DNA of 64,000 nt from an uncultured Desulfovibrionaceae bacterium (GTDB lineage: Bacteria; Desulfobacterota; Desulfovibrionia; Desulfovibrionales; Desulfovibrionaceae), in contig CATJOY010000048.1 of the NCBI GenBank assembly GCA_949741925.1, forward strand, positions 62,001 to 126,000, in the 5' to 3' direction. A model generated the notes under the pieces. The model was not told where the DNA came from, made no database searches, and saw only the letters and a list, made by a program, of their open reading frames with translations. Positions within the stretch are counted from its first letter, which is position 1; each line of letters opens with the position of its first letter. The position numbers and the translations under genes were made by a program. Positions 15,481 through 20,345 of this stretch are shown here, in pieces.

Positions 15481-16286
15481 CCCGTCTCTGTTTGACTATA
15501 GCCTATCTGGGGACGCATTTTTCCGGGTGGCAGATTCAGGAATTCAAAGCCAAGGCCCGGCCCCGGACAGTCCAGGGCGAGCTGGAAGCCGTACTTAAAC
15601 GGATAACCGGCCGGAAGCTGCGAATTTTTGGGGCCGGGCGTACGGATGCGGGCGTGCATGCCGACGCCCAGGTTGCTCACGTGGATATTCCCGAGGATCT
15701 GCCCCGCCGCAGTCCCGAAGCCTGGCAAAAAAGTTTTGCGGCTCTGTTGCCTCACGATGTGGCCGTCACCGCTGTATGTGAGGTCTCGCCGGAGTTCCAT
15801 GCCAGAAAAAGCGCCTGCGGCAAGCGCTATAGCTATGGACTCTGGCTGACCCGAAATTTTGTTCCCCCGAAACTGCGCAATGTTGTCTGGGAAACCGGTC
15901 CCCTCGATCTTAGGGCCATGCACGCCGCCGCTGCCTGCCTCACCGGCAGGCATGACTTTGCCTCCCTATGTAACAGCGGCACAGAGGTTGCCACTACAGT
16001 TAGGACCATCACCGCCATTACTTGCCAGGAAAAAAGCCCGTTGCATCTGGTCTGGCACGTTGAGGCAGAGGGCTTCCTTAAGCAGATGGTCCGCAACCTC
16101 GTAGGTCTCCTGGTCTATGCGGGCCGGGGAAAAATTGATCCGGCCTCCGTTTCGGAGTATATCCGGGCGGGCCGGCGGTCTGCATTGCCCTCCCCGACCG
16201 CCCCGGCCAAAGGCCTAACCCTCAGCAAGGTCTATTATGACGCGAACGAACAGCGCGGCCTTTCCGCCTCCCGGGGCGCGCCTTGA
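15477..16286 (+). CDS. truA: tRNA pseudouridine(38-40) synthase TruA
   Basis: 269 residues. It makes pseudouridine in the anticodon arm of tRNAs. The catalytic Asp lies in GAGRTDAGVHADAQVAHVD; RYSYGLWLTRN and EAEGFLKQMVRNLVGLLVYAGRGK are conserved TruA segments. The start overlaps the motE stop (ATGA), and its own 3' end overlaps the next gene by 50 bases, so all four genes from fliJ to the rRNA methyltransferase are probably cotranscribed from the sigma-54 promoter, possibly with others. Confidence 0.95.
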   Translation: MTRLCLTIAYLGTHFSGWQIQEFKAKARPRTVQGELEAVLKRITGRKLRIFGAGRTDAGVHADAQVAHVDIPEDLPRRSPEAWQKSFAALLPHDVAVTAVCEVSPEFHARKSACGKRYSYGLWLTRNFVPPKLRNVVWETGPLDLRAMHAAAACLTGRHDFASLCNSGTEVATTVRTITAITCQEKSPLHLVWHVEAEGFLKQMVRNLVGLLVYAGRGKIDPASVSEYIRAGRRSALPSPTAPAKGLTLSKVYYDANEQRGLSASRGAP

Positions 16287-17724
16287 GTTGACCATCCGTG
16301 ATCTCAGTCTGGATGGCGGCGCAATGGCCCGCCATGAAGGCGGCGTCATTTTTCTGGATCAAGGTTTGCCCGGCGAAACCGTGCAGGCCCGGGTTACCCG
16401 GATCAAGGCCGGGTATGCTCTGGCTCAGGTCGAAGCCTCCCTCTCCCCCTCGCCCCACGAGCGGCCTTCCTTCTGCGGCAACAAACAATGCGGCGGCTGC
16501 GCTTGGACGACCCTGGACTATGCCGCCGAATGCGCCTGGAAGGATAGGCAGTTGCGGGAAACCCTGAGCCGTCTCGGCGGGTTGCCGCGTTCCTTTACCG
16601 AGGATGCTCTCCGCTTTCCGGCCTTACTCCCTTCGCCTGCCTCCCTTGGCTACCGCAACAAAATGGAGTTCGCCTTTGCTCCGGACCCGGCCGCCTCCGG
16701 CCGCGCCTTGCTTGGCCTCAGGAAACGGAACAGCCGCGAAGTGACGGCAATAGACGAGTGCGGCCTAGCCTCGCTGCCCGTAGGCGCTCTTTTGGCGGAA
16801 GTCAGGGCCTGGGCTGCGGAGCGCCGCCTCCCCGCCTGGGGGAAGCGGGAAGGATTTTTGCGCTTTCTGGTCGCCCGAGATTCCGGCTCCACCCAACTTC
16901 CGGCCGAGGGGAAGCCCGGCTGGCTGGTAGAACTCATCACCGGGCCCTGTTCCAGGCGCTCCTCACGCCAACAGGCTGTCCGCGAACTGGCCGAAAGGCT
17001 GCTGGCCCGCGGCCTTTGTTGCGGCTTCAGCCATTCGCTGCGCAGCGATGCCGCCGATGTAGCCTATGGCGAACAAACACGCTTGAGCGCAGGGCGGAGC
17101 GCCATGGCCGCCGATTACGGCTCCCTGATCCTTGAGGCCCCCCCGGGAGCCTTTCTCCAGATTAATACCCCCGCCGCCGCCTTACTCTACGCGACTATAG
17201 GAGAGTTTTCTCTGGCCGGACAAGATGTTTCCCCCAGCAAGAGGGAATTGCGGATTCTGGATTGCTACGCCGGCGTTGGAGGCGTTGCCTTGACTCTGGC
17301 AGCGCTTCCCGCATGGTCCGGAGCGACGGTCATAGGGGTGGAAAATACCGGCCCGGCTGTGCTGGCGGCCCGCGAAAACGCCCGCCAAAACGGCCTGGAC
17401 AGGGTCGTTTTCCAGCAGGGGGATGCGGCGGCATTTCTGGCCGCTGAAGAAACCACCCCGGATCTGCTGGTAGCCGATCCACCGCGAGCCGGTCTCAGTG
17501 AAGCGGTTTTGGGAGAAATACTCCGGCTTGGTCCGGCCCGGTTGATCCTGGTTTCTTGCAACCCGGCCACCCTGGCGCGGGATGTCTCGCGGCTCACACC
17601 AAAATATACGCCGCGGCTGGCCCGGGGCATTGATCTCTTCCCCCACACGCCCCATCTGGAAACGGTGCTTTTGCTGGAGCGAAAGGCAGGATACCTGCCC
17701 TGCGCAAACAGCATTGCCTCATAA
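16237..17724 (+). CDS. rlmD: 23S rRNA (uracil-5-)-methyltransferase, RlmD/TrmA family, with altered C-terminus
   Basis: 495 residues. A TRAM domain (about 15-75) precedes an iron-sulfur motif (CGNKQCGGC plus a later Cys near DECGL). The SAM site is LDCYAGVGGVALTLA and the catalytic region is LVADPPRAGLSEAV and LVSCNPATLARDV (nucleophilic Cys). It probably forms m5U in 23S rRNA. The last 12 codons after LERKA come from inserted DNA; the displaced native 3' end, reading LERKASL and stop, remains at 20152-20214. The first start consistent with the TRAM domain is inside truA. Whether RlmD or another TrmA paralogue cannot be settled by eye. Confidence 0.88.
   Translation: MTRTNSAAFPPPGARLELTIRDLSLDGGAMARHEGGVIFLDQGLPGETVQARVTRIKAGYALAQVEASLSPSPHERPSFCGNKQCGGCAWTTLDYAAECAWKDRQLRETLSRLGGLPRSFTEDALRFPALLPSPASLGYRNKMEFAFAPDPAASGRALLGLRKRNSREVTAIDECGLASLPVGALLAEVRAWAAERRLPAWGKREGFLRFLVARDSGSTQLPAEGKPGWLVELITGPCSRRSSRQQAVRELAERLLARGLCCGFSHSLRSDAADVAYGEQTRLSAGRSAMAADYGSLILEAPPGAFLQINTPAAALLYATIGEFSLAGQDVSPSKRELRILDCYAGVGGVALTLAALPAWSGATVIGVENTGPAVLAARENARQNGLDRVVFQQGDAAAFLAAEETTPDLLVADPPRAGLSEAVLGEILRLGPARLILVSCNPATLARDVSRLTPKYTPRLARGIDLFPHTPHLETVLLLERKAGYLPCANSIAS
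17635..17687 (+). repeat. 53-bp direct repeat, left copy (attL-like)
   Basis: It starts at CTCTTCCCCCACACGCCCC and ends at GGAGCGAAAGGC, inside the 3' end of the methyltransferase gene. An identical 53-base copy lies at 20152-20204. Sequences before and after the two copies differ. Confidence 0.93.
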
Positions 17725-17785
17725 GACAACATCTTGAAACCGGCTAGCAAGGGGCTTCTGAAATGCACTCCGCCGAATCCCCCCT

Positions 17786-17814
17786 TTGCCAAATCGAAAT
17801 AGGCGGCATATAGT
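17786..17814 (+). promoter_or_regulatory. Sigma-70-type promoter of the islet operon
   Basis: TTGCCA (17786-17791), a 17-base spacer and TATAGT (17809-17814), ending 75 bases before the AlbA_2 gene. It is a close consensus match and lies inside the inserted DNA. Confidence 0.7.
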
Positions 17815-17889
17815 GAGGAATCTCCGAACTGTGCCTTATCGGGCCCCCACATGGCCGGCATCCGATTGCCGCGGAGAGTAGGAGAAACT

Positions 17890-19131
17890 ATGCAACGCTA
17901 TACCGATGCGCAACTTTTGGCATTGCTTCAGGATCTTGAATCAGACAGGGTGGAGCGCAAGGAATCGTTTCGCGGCACAACCCCTAAAAAAGCCCGCCAA
18001 GCTGTATGCGCATTTGCTAATGACTTGCCGAATTACAACACGCCGGGCATACTTTTTATTGGCGCTTGCGATGATGGAACGCCATCTAACGAGCCCATTA
18101 CCGATGAACTGTTATGCGCGCTTTCGGATATGTGCCGGGATGGCACTATACTGCCCCTACCCGTTATGACCGTTGAAAAACGGCTTATATCCGGCGTTGA
18201 AATGGCGGTTGTCATCGTCTATCCCTCAGATACGCCTCCTGTACGCTATGATGGACGTATTTGGATACGCACAGGGCCAAGACGTTCGATCGCCAACGAG
18301 CAGGAGGAAAGAATCCTCGTAGAAAAACGCCGATATAAGAATATACCTTATGATATGTACCCCGTGCCTGGCGCAACAGTGCATGATCTTTCACGCAGTT
18401 ATTTTGAGCAAGAATACCTTCCTGCATCCTATGCTCGAGATATATTGGAAGAAAATAATAGAACATACGAGCAGAAACTTGCAAGCTGCCGGATGATCGC
18501 TTCGCCTGATAATCCTGTTCCCACAATTTCCGGCCTTCTTATACTTGGGAAAAACCCTCAAGATTTTATTCCGGGATCATTTATTCAATTTTTACGTCTC
18601 GATGGTGTTGAGTTATCCGATCCTGTTATTGATGCAGAAGATATCTATGGGAATATAAGTACTATGCTAAGAAGCTTTGAGCAAAAAATTACTGCTCATA
18701 ACAGAGTTTCTATTGATATCATCAGCGCGCCAAAAGAAATTCGTAGAGCATTATATCCAATGCCAGCAATGCGACAGCTTGTATATAATGCTGTTATGCA
18801 CAGGACCTATGAAGGAACAAATGCCCCGATAAGGATATATTGGTTCAACGATAGAGTAGAAATATACAGCCCCGGCGGCCCTTATGGCAATGTAACCCCT
18901 GAAAATTTTGGGCAGCCCGGGATAACGGATTATAGAAATCCTAATCTTTCCGGAGCAATGAAGGTTTTGGGCTTTGTGCAGGGCTTTGGAAGGGGCATTG
19001 CCACAGCCCGCCGTGAGCTGGAAAAAAACGGCAACCCGCCTTTAGAGCTTTCCCCCACGCCGAGCGCCGTGCTGTGTACACTGAAGGAGAGAGAGCATGA
19101 CAACGCCCATCCTTACCTTTTTCAACAATAA
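17890..19131 (+). CDS. AlbA_2 (Schlafen-like) / GHKL ATPase domain protein
   Basis: 413 residues. Residues about 8-140 form an AlbA_2 domain (LESDRVERKESF..., ILFIGACDDGTP, VRYDGRIWIRTGPRRSIAN). The C-terminal part is a GHKL-type ATPase module of the RecG-like/HATPase_c_4 kind: an N-box RQLVYNAVMHRTYEGTNAPI, then VEIYSPGGPYG and GFVQGFGRGI. AlbA_2 domains are thought to bind nucleic acid, and several such proteins occur in defence or regulatory loci. ATG 17890 follows TAGGAGAAA. Its middle is noticeably AT-rich relative to neighbours. The gene overlaps parA by 35 bases. Exact activity is unknown. Confidence 0.85.
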   Translation: MQRYTDAQLLALLQDLESDRVERKESFRGTTPKKARQAVCAFANDLPNYNTPGILFIGACDDGTPSNEPITDELLCALSDMCRDGTILPLPVMTVEKRLISGVEMAVVIVYPSDTPPVRYDGRIWIRTGPRRSIANEQEERILVEKRRYKNIPYDMYPVPGATVHDLSRSYFEQEYLPASYARDILEENNRTYEQKLASCRMIASPDNPVPTISGLLILGKNPQDFIPGSFIQFLRLDGVELSDPVIDAEDIYGNISTMLRSFEQKITAHNRVSIDIISAPKEIRRALYPMPAMRQLVYNAVMHRTYEGTNAPIRIYWFNDRVEIYSPGGPYGNVTPENFGQPGITDYRNPNLSGAMKVLGFVQGFGRGIATARRELEKNGNPPLELSPTPSAVLCTLKEREHDNAHPYLFQQ

Positions 19132-20113
19132 AGGCGGCGTCGGGAAAACATCGCTTCTCTACCATCTTGCCTGGATGTTTTCTGACCAAGGCAAGCGGGT
19201 GGTCACGGCGGATCTTGACCCGCAAAGCAACCTGACAGCGATATTCCTTGATGATGATACCATTGAGAATCTATGGGAGAACGGCGGCCCCGGCGCGACC
19301 ATATACCGGGCCGTAAAGCCTCTTGCCGGAGTGGGCGATATTGTTTCTGTAGGTGTCTTAAATATTACAGAGCGTCTTTTTCTCATCCCCGGCGATGTCG
19401 CTCTTTCAAGCTACGAGGATGTGTTAGCCGAGCAATGGCCCTTAAGTATGGGCGATGCCAACCTGTACCGCCCCATGCGCATCCTGAGTTCTTTCTGGCA
19501 AGTTATGCAGGAAGCAGCAGCAGCAAAGGAAGCGGATATCATCCTCGTGGATATCGGGCCCAATCTTGGAGCAATTAACCGCTCCGTACTGATAGCTACG
19601 GATTACGTCATCATGCCTCTCGGCGCCGATCTCTTCTCGTTACAAGGCCTGAGGAACCTGGGGCCTGCTCTGCGTGCATGGCGTAGCGCCTGGGGCAAAC
19701 GCTTAGATAATTGGAAAAATTCCGCTGAAGCGATAGAGTACCCGGAATTTAAATTGCCCGCCGGCGCCATGCAGAGCGTCGGCTACCTAACCCAACAGCA
19801 CAGCGTACGGCTTGACCGGCCGGTCAGAGCCTATGATAAATGGATAAACCGTATTCCCCAAGCATATAGAAAATGGGTGCTCGCTCAATCTCCCGGCCCG
19901 GCAATACTCCCGCAAGACGATCCTTATTGCCTTGCGACTATAAAACATTATCGCAGCCTTATTCCCATGGCCCAGGAGGTTCACAAGCCCATTTTCAAAT
20001 TAACGGCTGCCGATGGAGCCATTGGATCCCATGCGGCCTCTGTCCAGGGGGCAGAAAGGGATTTTAGTAAACTGGCCGGGGTGATCGCGAAAAAAATTCA
20101 TCTTCAATTATAA
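19097..20113 (+). CDS. ParA/Soj family ATPase
   Basis: 338 residues. It has the deviant Walker A motif NNKGGVGKTSLLYHLA at residues about 10-25, the A' motif VTADLDPQSNLT and the Walker B segment ADIILVDIGPNLGAINRS. ParA ATPases position plasmids, chromosomes or protein machines; no ParB gene or obvious parS cluster is nearby, so classical partition is unlikely. A GAGAGAG ribosome binding site lies within the 3' end of the AlbA_2 gene and the 35-base overlap implies coupled translation. The C-terminal ~130 residues (IPQAYRKWVLAQ..., HYRSLIPMAQEVHKPIF) are not typical of short plasmid ParAs. Confidence 0.88.
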   Translation: MTTPILTFFNNKGGVGKTSLLYHLAWMFSDQGKRVVTADLDPQSNLTAIFLDDDTIENLWENGGPGATIYRAVKPLAGVGDIVSVGVLNITERLFLIPGDVALSSYEDVLAEQWPLSMGDANLYRPMRILSSFWQVMQEAAAAKEADIILVDIGPNLGAINRSVLIATDYVIMPLGADLFSLQGLRNLGPALRAWRSAWGKRLDNWKNSAEAIEYPEFKLPAGAMQSVGYLTQQHSVRLDRPVRAYDKWINRIPQAYRKWVLAQSPGPAILPQDDPYCLATIKHYRSLIPMAQEVHKPIFKLTAADGAIGSHAASVQGAERDFSKLAGVIAKKIHLQL

Positions 20114-20151
20114 GAAAACTCTTACCAGGCCCTAAAGATACAGCAAGCCGG

Positions 20152-20204
20152 CTCTTCCCCCACACGCCCCATCTGGAAACGGTGCTTTTGCTGGAGCGAA
20201 AGGC
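20152..20204 (+). repeat. 53-bp direct repeat, right copy (attR-like)
   Basis: Identical over 53 bases to 17635-17687. Confidence 0.93.
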
Positions 20205-20214
20205 GAGCCTATAA
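20152..20214 (+). pseudogene. Displaced native 3' end of rlmD
   Basis: In the methyltransferase frame it reads through LERKASL and stops at TAA 20212-20214. LERK plus a few residues is the common end of this family, so this is the original tail that the insertion cut off. Confidence 0.8.
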
Positions 20215-20220
20215 AGCATA

Positions 20221-20248
20221 TAGCTATATAAATAATACTATATAGCTA
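20221..20248. repeat. 10-bp AT-rich inverted repeat
   Basis: TAGCTATATA / TATATAGCTA with an 8-base loop, six bases after the old rlmD stop. It may be the original rlmD 3' structure or a binding site near the attachment site. Confidence 0.45.
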
Positions 20249-20345
20249 GCAGCCATATCGAACCCCCGGGAGGTGATCGGGCTTACCCACAACGCGCGGC
20301 AAAAGGCGCAGCGAGTCCGCGCGTCGCTTCCACAACGTATTTTTT

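Follow-up and report, generated by a model that had tools for sequence, protein, structure and literature searches.

At the 3' end of rlmD in a 64,000-nucleotide stretch of DNA from an uncultured Desulfovibrionaceae bacterium (assembly GCA_949741925.1, contig CATJOY010000048.1, positions 62,001 to 126,000 of the forward strand; the whole stretch is referred to below as the window), two overlapping genes, A and B, are bracketed by a perfect direct repeat (100% identity, both copies on the same strand). Gene A is predicted to encode a Schlafen-type AlbA_2 domain fused to a GHKL ATPase domain, and gene B an orphan ATPase of the ParA type. As we describe here, there is strong support for the two being a conserved module, which may well serve in anti-phage defence. 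The locus comprises the following features:

16237-17724, + strand: rlmD, the target gene (name from an earlier reading, homologues found), now ending with insert-derived codons 3' of the repeat
17635-17687, + strand: upstream copy of the 53-bp direct repeat, within rlmD (sequence comparison)
17786-17814, + strand: match to a sigma-70-like promoter, not clearly above the regional chance level
17890-19131, + strand: gene A, 413 residues, SLFN_AlbA_2 plus HATPase_c_4 (GHKL), E17 and E22 invariant in 73/73 sequences (Pfam, alignment, structure model)
19097-20113, + strand: gene B, 338 residues, orphan ParA-type ATPase with Walker A motif KGGVGKT and an extended C-terminal region (Pfam, alignment, structure model)
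20152-20204, + strand: downstream copy of the 53-bp direct repeat (sequence comparison)
20205-20214, + strand: displaced end of rlmD, probably the ancestral one, with its final codons and stop (ASL-stop; the repeat ends within the A codon; comparison with RlmD ends by eye)

Both the repeat around two genes at the end of rlmD and the order of an AlbA_2-GHKL gene followed by a ParA gene had been proposed in a first-pass annotation of this DNA; the former is borne out by the sequence comparison and the latter by Pfam and by fold models. The remaining listed open reading frames (ORFs) of at least 60 residues between the repeats are short frames overlapping A or B. The single good promoter that the annotation had assigned to the pair does not clearly exceed chance: the region contains 6 such matches, including that at 17786-17814 (10/12), against a chance expectation of 3.9 ± 2.1. 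The A-B pair has a G+C content of 49%, compared with 57% across the rest of the window.

By its sequence, the islet seems to be an insert at the 3' end of rlmD that has duplicated the end of the gene. Through the upstream copy, rlmD continues for 11 more codons past the shared alanine and acquires a longer ending; after the downstream copy come two codons and a stop (ASL-stop). By eye, this is close to the ends of RlmD homologues from relatives, of which, at 34-47% identity, the gene ends alone were comparable (several wrong-frame rows were ignored). The earlier claim that the pair is absent from the ancestral rlmD gains indirect support from this displaced ending, but none from a direct view of an empty site, since the sole same-genus genome in the search (54% complete) gave no rlmD match. 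Directly 3' of the displaced end, positions 20205-20260 of the window hold AT-rich repeats of the TATATAG/CTATATA type, noted by eye.

Gene A matches SLFN_AlbA_2 (PF04326, 1.3e-9) and HATPase_c_4 (9.6e-16) in Pfam, which detects no winged-helix domain in it. The AlphaFold model of A built from the alignment is confident (mean pLDDT 93), and as a whole it is most similar to 3lmm (Z 23.4, 360 aligned residues); the root-mean-square deviation of 12.4 indicates that the domains of the two proteins are placed differently. Taken separately, the N-terminal domain resembles chains of the SAMD9 tRNase (best Z 9.3) and of Schlafen proteins (best Z 8.7), while the C-terminal domain scores up to Z 8.0 against GHKL ATPases, which the tool's own note ranks as middling, with Pfam supporting the GHKL assignment. 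E17, E22, N300, H304, G329, G330, G333 and G369 are invariant in 73/73 sequences. From the sequence and the model, A is predicted to contain the Schlafen AlbA_2 fold, and from its sequence we infer that it would act as an RNase.

Gene B matches AAA_31 in Pfam (7e-25) and carries a KGGVGKT Walker A motif in which K12 is present in 72/72 and K17 in 71/72 sequences (L061, where B is truncated, was omitted from the alignment). Its AlphaFold model from the alignment is likewise confident (mean pLDDT 94), with a full-length match to 3pg5 (E 4.9e-43 by profile) and matches to ParA/Soj chains. By motif and predicted fold, B is a ParA-type deviant Walker A ATPase. That it has no ParB partner had been suggested before, and this was confirmed in the cases we looked at: no ParB lies in the islet, where A is the only partner gene beside B, and none of the families to which at least two of 145 neighbouring genes belong is ParB (families with a single member being shown only in part). 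Pieces of the C-terminal part of B, which may be left over from earlier copies, occur near or away from an intact copy in L256 (10558-10821, - strand) and in G359:C578.

The association of A with B is conserved far beyond the window. A genome scan with the ParA alignment returned at least 573 relatives, of which the best 80, 50-70% identical to B, were kept; A or its remains lies directly upstream of B in 77 of these 80 loci (76/80 by profile). A is split or truncated next to a whole B in 7/80, and in L101 just the end of A is on the contig. When the co-occurrence check proposed in the first-pass annotation was run on two genome samples, B was detected at E <1e-118 in 8/297 genomes of the phylum and 6/249 of an actinobacterial order, and an adjoining A was found in all 14, split in two of them; one of the 14 is the genome of the window itself, and G179 (= L104) and G359 (= L105) are also among the 80. 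Five weaker B matches (3e-82 to 3e-28) were examined, none with an A. In the reverse search, A was found at E <1e-57 in 10/297 genomes, eight of which contain B; this count leaves out a 121-residue A fragment in G135 (1.7e-45) and weaker relatives of A. Pairwise distances of A and B correlate (r = 0.84, permutation maximum 0.17). The overlap between the genes was measurable in 72 loci with a full-length A match, out of a set of 83 (the 80, G025 and two viral contigs; 11 dropped), and is exactly 4 nt in 62/72. The 35-nt overlap that had been regarded as a trait of the module is peculiar to the window copy, in which A reads past its usual stop in another frame.

Record titles of the relatives include Pseudomonadota classes, Planctomycetota, Spirochaetes, Chlorobaculum, Desulfobacterales, Synergistota, Myxococcota, Bacteroidetes, cyanobacteria, Pseudonocardia and one Methanospirillum; most of these records are metagenome bins, and some placements may be contamination. 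Among the 59 genomes searched (own included), just G000 and G025 contain the pair.

Flanking duplications suggest how the pair moves. Comparing upstream with downstream flanks, we found a direct repeat of at least 40 bits in 11/73 loci, compared with 2/5,256 mismatched cross-pairs (loci with less than 200 bp of flank were dropped). With 600-bp flanks, repeats were found in 8/72 loci and in 3/721 shifted pseudo-elements (Fisher p 4e-7, a test that treats the overlapping pseudo-element windows as independent; loci with less than 300 bp of flank dropped), and with 1000-bp flanks the contrast was weaker (10/72 against 4/294). The duplications are 23 to 307 bp long. In 8 of the 11 repeat-bearing loci the upstream repeat ends no more than 320 bp from A, and in L043, L049 and L070 it lies 658-1362 bp away, so that more than the pair may be enclosed. 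In eight copies, the window's included, repeats of unrelated sequence enclose nothing, or hardly anything, besides the pair. Nine further loci yielded no duplication at 40 bits (0/9), although three of the nine (L248 = L104, L256 = L100, and L255 = L002 with longer flanks) had been counted among the 73. The module has a lower G+C content than its flanks in 61/66 loci.

The duplicated target genes differ from locus to locus wherever they are readable (names mostly by eye): a cyclodeaminase-type gene in L042 (FTCD_C is one of the families matched by the neighbouring genes of the loci); an EamA-like transporter gene in opposite orientation in L114; a LacI-type regulator gene in L043; an AlbA_2-type gene in L063; and the 5' end of a methylase gene in L065. 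The expectation that other genomes would carry the pair at the same rlmD site is therefore not upheld. Among the ORFs of the loci, RlmD is found only at the window's own locus and, over 58 residues, in L053 at a distance of about 3 kb downstream of B, and in G025 the pair is some 280 kb away from rlmD. The link to rlmD is incidental.

Some copies of the pair sit within known defence loci. In BREX loci the gene orders are pglX-A-B-pglZ-brxL (L116), A-B-brxC (L105) and partial brxC-A-B (L035); in Hma loci they are hmaA-A-B-hmaB-hmaC (L058), hmaB-A-B-hmaC (L089) and A-B-hmaB (L102 and L104); and a DISARM-type locus reads A-B-drmA (L063, partial, at a contig end). Other defence neighbours are a type III methylase (L065) and an HKD-SNF2 helicase (L078). 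In L116, L035, L102 and L104 a neighbouring gene overlaps the pair by 4 nt. The 2023 PADLOC library has no dedicated full-length model for A or B, the best match of B being partial and weak (3.7e-8), in agreement with the earlier statement that no named system has this composition, as far as the libraries searched extend.

More distant relatives of B have different partner genes, located downstream of ParA. SIR2_2 partners were found in 20 loci (Pfam confirmed 7/7 tested), HEPN (RiboL-PSP) partners in 12 (8/8 tested match, two below the Pfam cut-off) and RelA_SpoT partners, possibly toxic small alarmone synthetases, in six viral loci (L167, L171, L172, L178, L183 and L187; 2/2 tested confirmed). 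One of ten proteins tested against Pfam, from L123, matched no family, and 44/80 viral-contig relatives lack a SIR2, HEPN or RelA partner. The ParA-SIR2_2 loci, in which the SIR2_2 gene follows ParA closely, constitute a second ParA-effector class carried by viral contigs and plasmids; they comprise L022-L025 plus 16 viral loci in the range L127 to L159. Flank duplication was seen in 1/33 of these other dyads; L139, a ParA-HEPN dyad, lies between direct repeats of 48 bp (98%). In a midpoint-rooted tree of 115 ParAs, with long branches flagged, the 22 sampled Schlafen-partnered ParAs form a single clade (100/100) in which neighbours come from different phyla, and the SIR2 and RelA partner labels change 3 and 2 times. 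Eight ParAs of related genomes, presumed canonical and assumed to act in partition, form a separate clade (100/100) on long branches.

Reading from the sequences the conserved pairing, the predicted domain folds, the invariant residues, the defence contexts of some copies, the mixing of phyla and the target duplications of some loci, we propose with moderate confidence that A-B is a two-gene anti-phage module of the abortive-infection type that moves as a unit and combines a ParA switch with a Schlafen-type RNase. A would lie dormant, a Schlafen-type RNase joined to a nucleotide-binding GHKL domain, and B, lacking ParB, would be the partner that senses and that licenses A. Upon an infection cue, or once a BREX, Hma or DISARM system next to the pair is inhibited, the nucleotide state of B would change; this change would release or activate A, which would then cut RNA, most likely tRNA, and stop the infected cell. 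The RNase activity of A, its control by B, the trigger and immunity as the outcome are the parts of the scheme that we infer. We favour an immune module because the Schlafen fold and a switch ATPase come together with copies in defence operons, a patchy spread and insertion resembling that of restriction systems.

Several observations weigh against this proposal. Of the three acidic residues expected at the putative RNase site, the third varies (D61 in 63/73 and D62 in 49/73 sequences), and correspondence with the Schlafen active site is presumed only from the spacing E17-E22-D61, which resembles that of the E-E-D site of SLFN13. The best PADLOC match of A (4.9e-11) is partial, weak and generic, and the annotations of some of its relatives read transcriptional regulator or RecG helicase. 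The association with defence loci, which had been suggested as a check, stands for the BREX, Hma and DISARM-type copies, but its frequency comes from a selective sample: a known defence gene adjoins the pair in 10 of 11 loci picked by eye from 78 with callable neighbours, the eleventh, L069, having generic matches only. Likewise, the 145 nearest neighbours matched 138 PADLOC families and 132 control genes matched 5, a rough contrast in which one protein can match many models, the neighbours were called by ORF length alone (many may be spurious) and the control genes were all drawn from the window and the rlmD loci, within one bacterial order. Finally, the partners occasionally occur apart. B lacks A in 3/80 loci (L071, L090 and L103), which fits either an antitoxin or a licensing role for B, and G063 and G099, two incomplete genomes of one genus, carry an open 414-residue A; the 5-8 kb on the B side contain no B, and none was found elsewhere in them at E 1e-20. 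In L071 the lone B stands between genes that read, by eye, like lipB and lipA; in L287, which with L289 derives from G063 and G099, the gene next to the 414-residue A is on the opposite strand and protein-kinase-like.

Several described systems resemble the pair in part. The closest in kind is the ParA/Soj-HEPN (MAE_18760) dyad, a toxin-antitoxin system predicted in 2013 with the ATPase as antitoxin (PMC3710099). Like it, A-B is a predicted two-gene operon of an orphan ParA-type ATPase and an RNase-type partner, and a table in that paper also gives Schlafen fusions for the MAE_18760 HEPN family; unlike it, the A-B partner is a Schlafen AlbA_2-GHKL protein encoded upstream of ParA, and the sampled ParAs partnered with A form one clade. 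Judged from sequence, A-B fits this kind of ParA-effector dyad, as an orphan ParA in a tight predicted operon with an effector-type gene. In BREX and BREX-related loci, Schlafen RNases that carry a histidine-kinase-like domain plus a winged helix-turn-helix are described as accessory effectors, and abortive infection is given as a possible mode of action for several Schlafen-linked systems (PMC12839542). A similarly joins AlbA_2 to a histidine-kinase-like domain and occurs in BREX- and Hma-like loci, but it has no Pfam winged helix and does have a ParA partner, a word with 0 occurrences in that paper's text. PARIS, found beside BREX, pairs the ATPase AriA with the tRNA-cutting TOPRIM nuclease AriB (PMC12839542); the A-B unit likewise consists of two genes, an ATPase and a proposed RNA-cutting effector, near BREX in some copies, although A and B belong to different protein families. 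Restriction-modification modules are reported to insert with long, variable target duplications (Nobusato 2000, as related in PMC1643837 and PMC3031569), and A-B is similarly compact and bracketed by duplications of variable length, but contains no methylase or restriction enzyme.

The best fold matches of A and B are solved Corynebacterium diphtheriae structures with no named function, DIP2311 (3lmm) and DIP2308 (3pg5), whose locus numbers suggest a single neighbourhood; they are about 20% identical to A and B, and DIP2308 is by eye nearer the SIR2-partnered ParAs. IbfA (PMC12111858) was considered as a relative and rejected, as an ATPase-TOPRIM protein rather than a ParA. Full-text searches of open-licence literature, with few preprints, returned no paper that by its title and the start of its abstract deals with a ParA-Schlafen dyad. 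Within the searches made, the ATPase-effector kind of dyad is already known and the Schlafen-GHKL plus ParA composition is undescribed.

The earlier idea of a cargo defence or addiction module stands as far as a conserved module is concerned, while simple addiction is weakened. In classical addiction A would be a constitutively toxic RNase and B its antitoxin, the module being kept by killing the cells that lose it. This is what has been predicted for the ParA/Soj-HEPN dyad (PMC3710099), flanking duplications of this kind are reported for restriction systems viewed as selfish units (PMC3031569), and the seven loci with a broken A beside a whole B would fit. The open A without B in one genus disfavours a plain antitoxin role for B, and the residence of some copies within BREX and Hma operons also speaks against addiction, which we regard as unlikely.

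Alternatively, the rlmD islet might be what remains of a larger integrative element that has lost its integrase, with the 53-bp repeats as attL and attR. A 3'-end target and a perfect repeat that restores the gene end are as such an element would leave them, and the repeats of L043, L049 and L070 may enclose more than the pair. Against this, the eight near-pair-only copies between unrelated repeats would require many independent trims to the same two genes, making a remnant distinctly improbable.

Still less probable, in our estimation, is a regulator or DNA-positioning pair, in which an AlbA_2/HATPase transcriptional regulator would work with a partition-type ATPase. Plasmid relatives of A are indeed annotated as 'transcriptional regulator' and 'RNA-binding domain-containing protein', and B has the ParA fold and motifs; A, however, has no winged helix by Pfam, ParB is missing from the recurrent neighbour families, the relatives of B separate from the presumed canonical ParAs in the tree, and the neighbours are rich in PADLOC matches. 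That A and B themselves perform the insertion, as a new mobile element, we consider very improbable: despite duplications at different genes in 11/73 loci, eight with the upstream repeat close to A, each of 8 genomes searched holds a single full-length copy, no end sequence is common to the loci (flanks are similar in just 4 locus pairs, which probably share a site), the duplications vary widely in length, and the same kind is reported for restriction systems, which are not transposases.

If the anti-phage reading of A-B is correct, a very compact module, with records from many bacterial phyla and one archaeon and no good match in the defence catalogue searched, would link the antiviral fold of animal Schlafen proteins to a ParA switch and place ParA ATPases in immunity rather than partition. 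The duplications would allow the movement of such a minimal defence unit to be traced, and the exchange of SIR2, HEPN, RelA and Schlafen effectors on one ATPase family would offer a clean test bench for the gating of toxic effectors by ATPases. More tentatively, and with slightly more doubt than belief, orphan ParA ATPases could be a general immune switch with interchangeable effectors (Schlafen-GHKL RNase, SIR2, HEPN RNase or RelA-SpoT synthetase), the Schlafen type acting on its own, as a free-standing islet, as well as in the role of a guard plugged into BREX, Hma and DISARM operons, and spreading as a two-gene unit by long target duplication.

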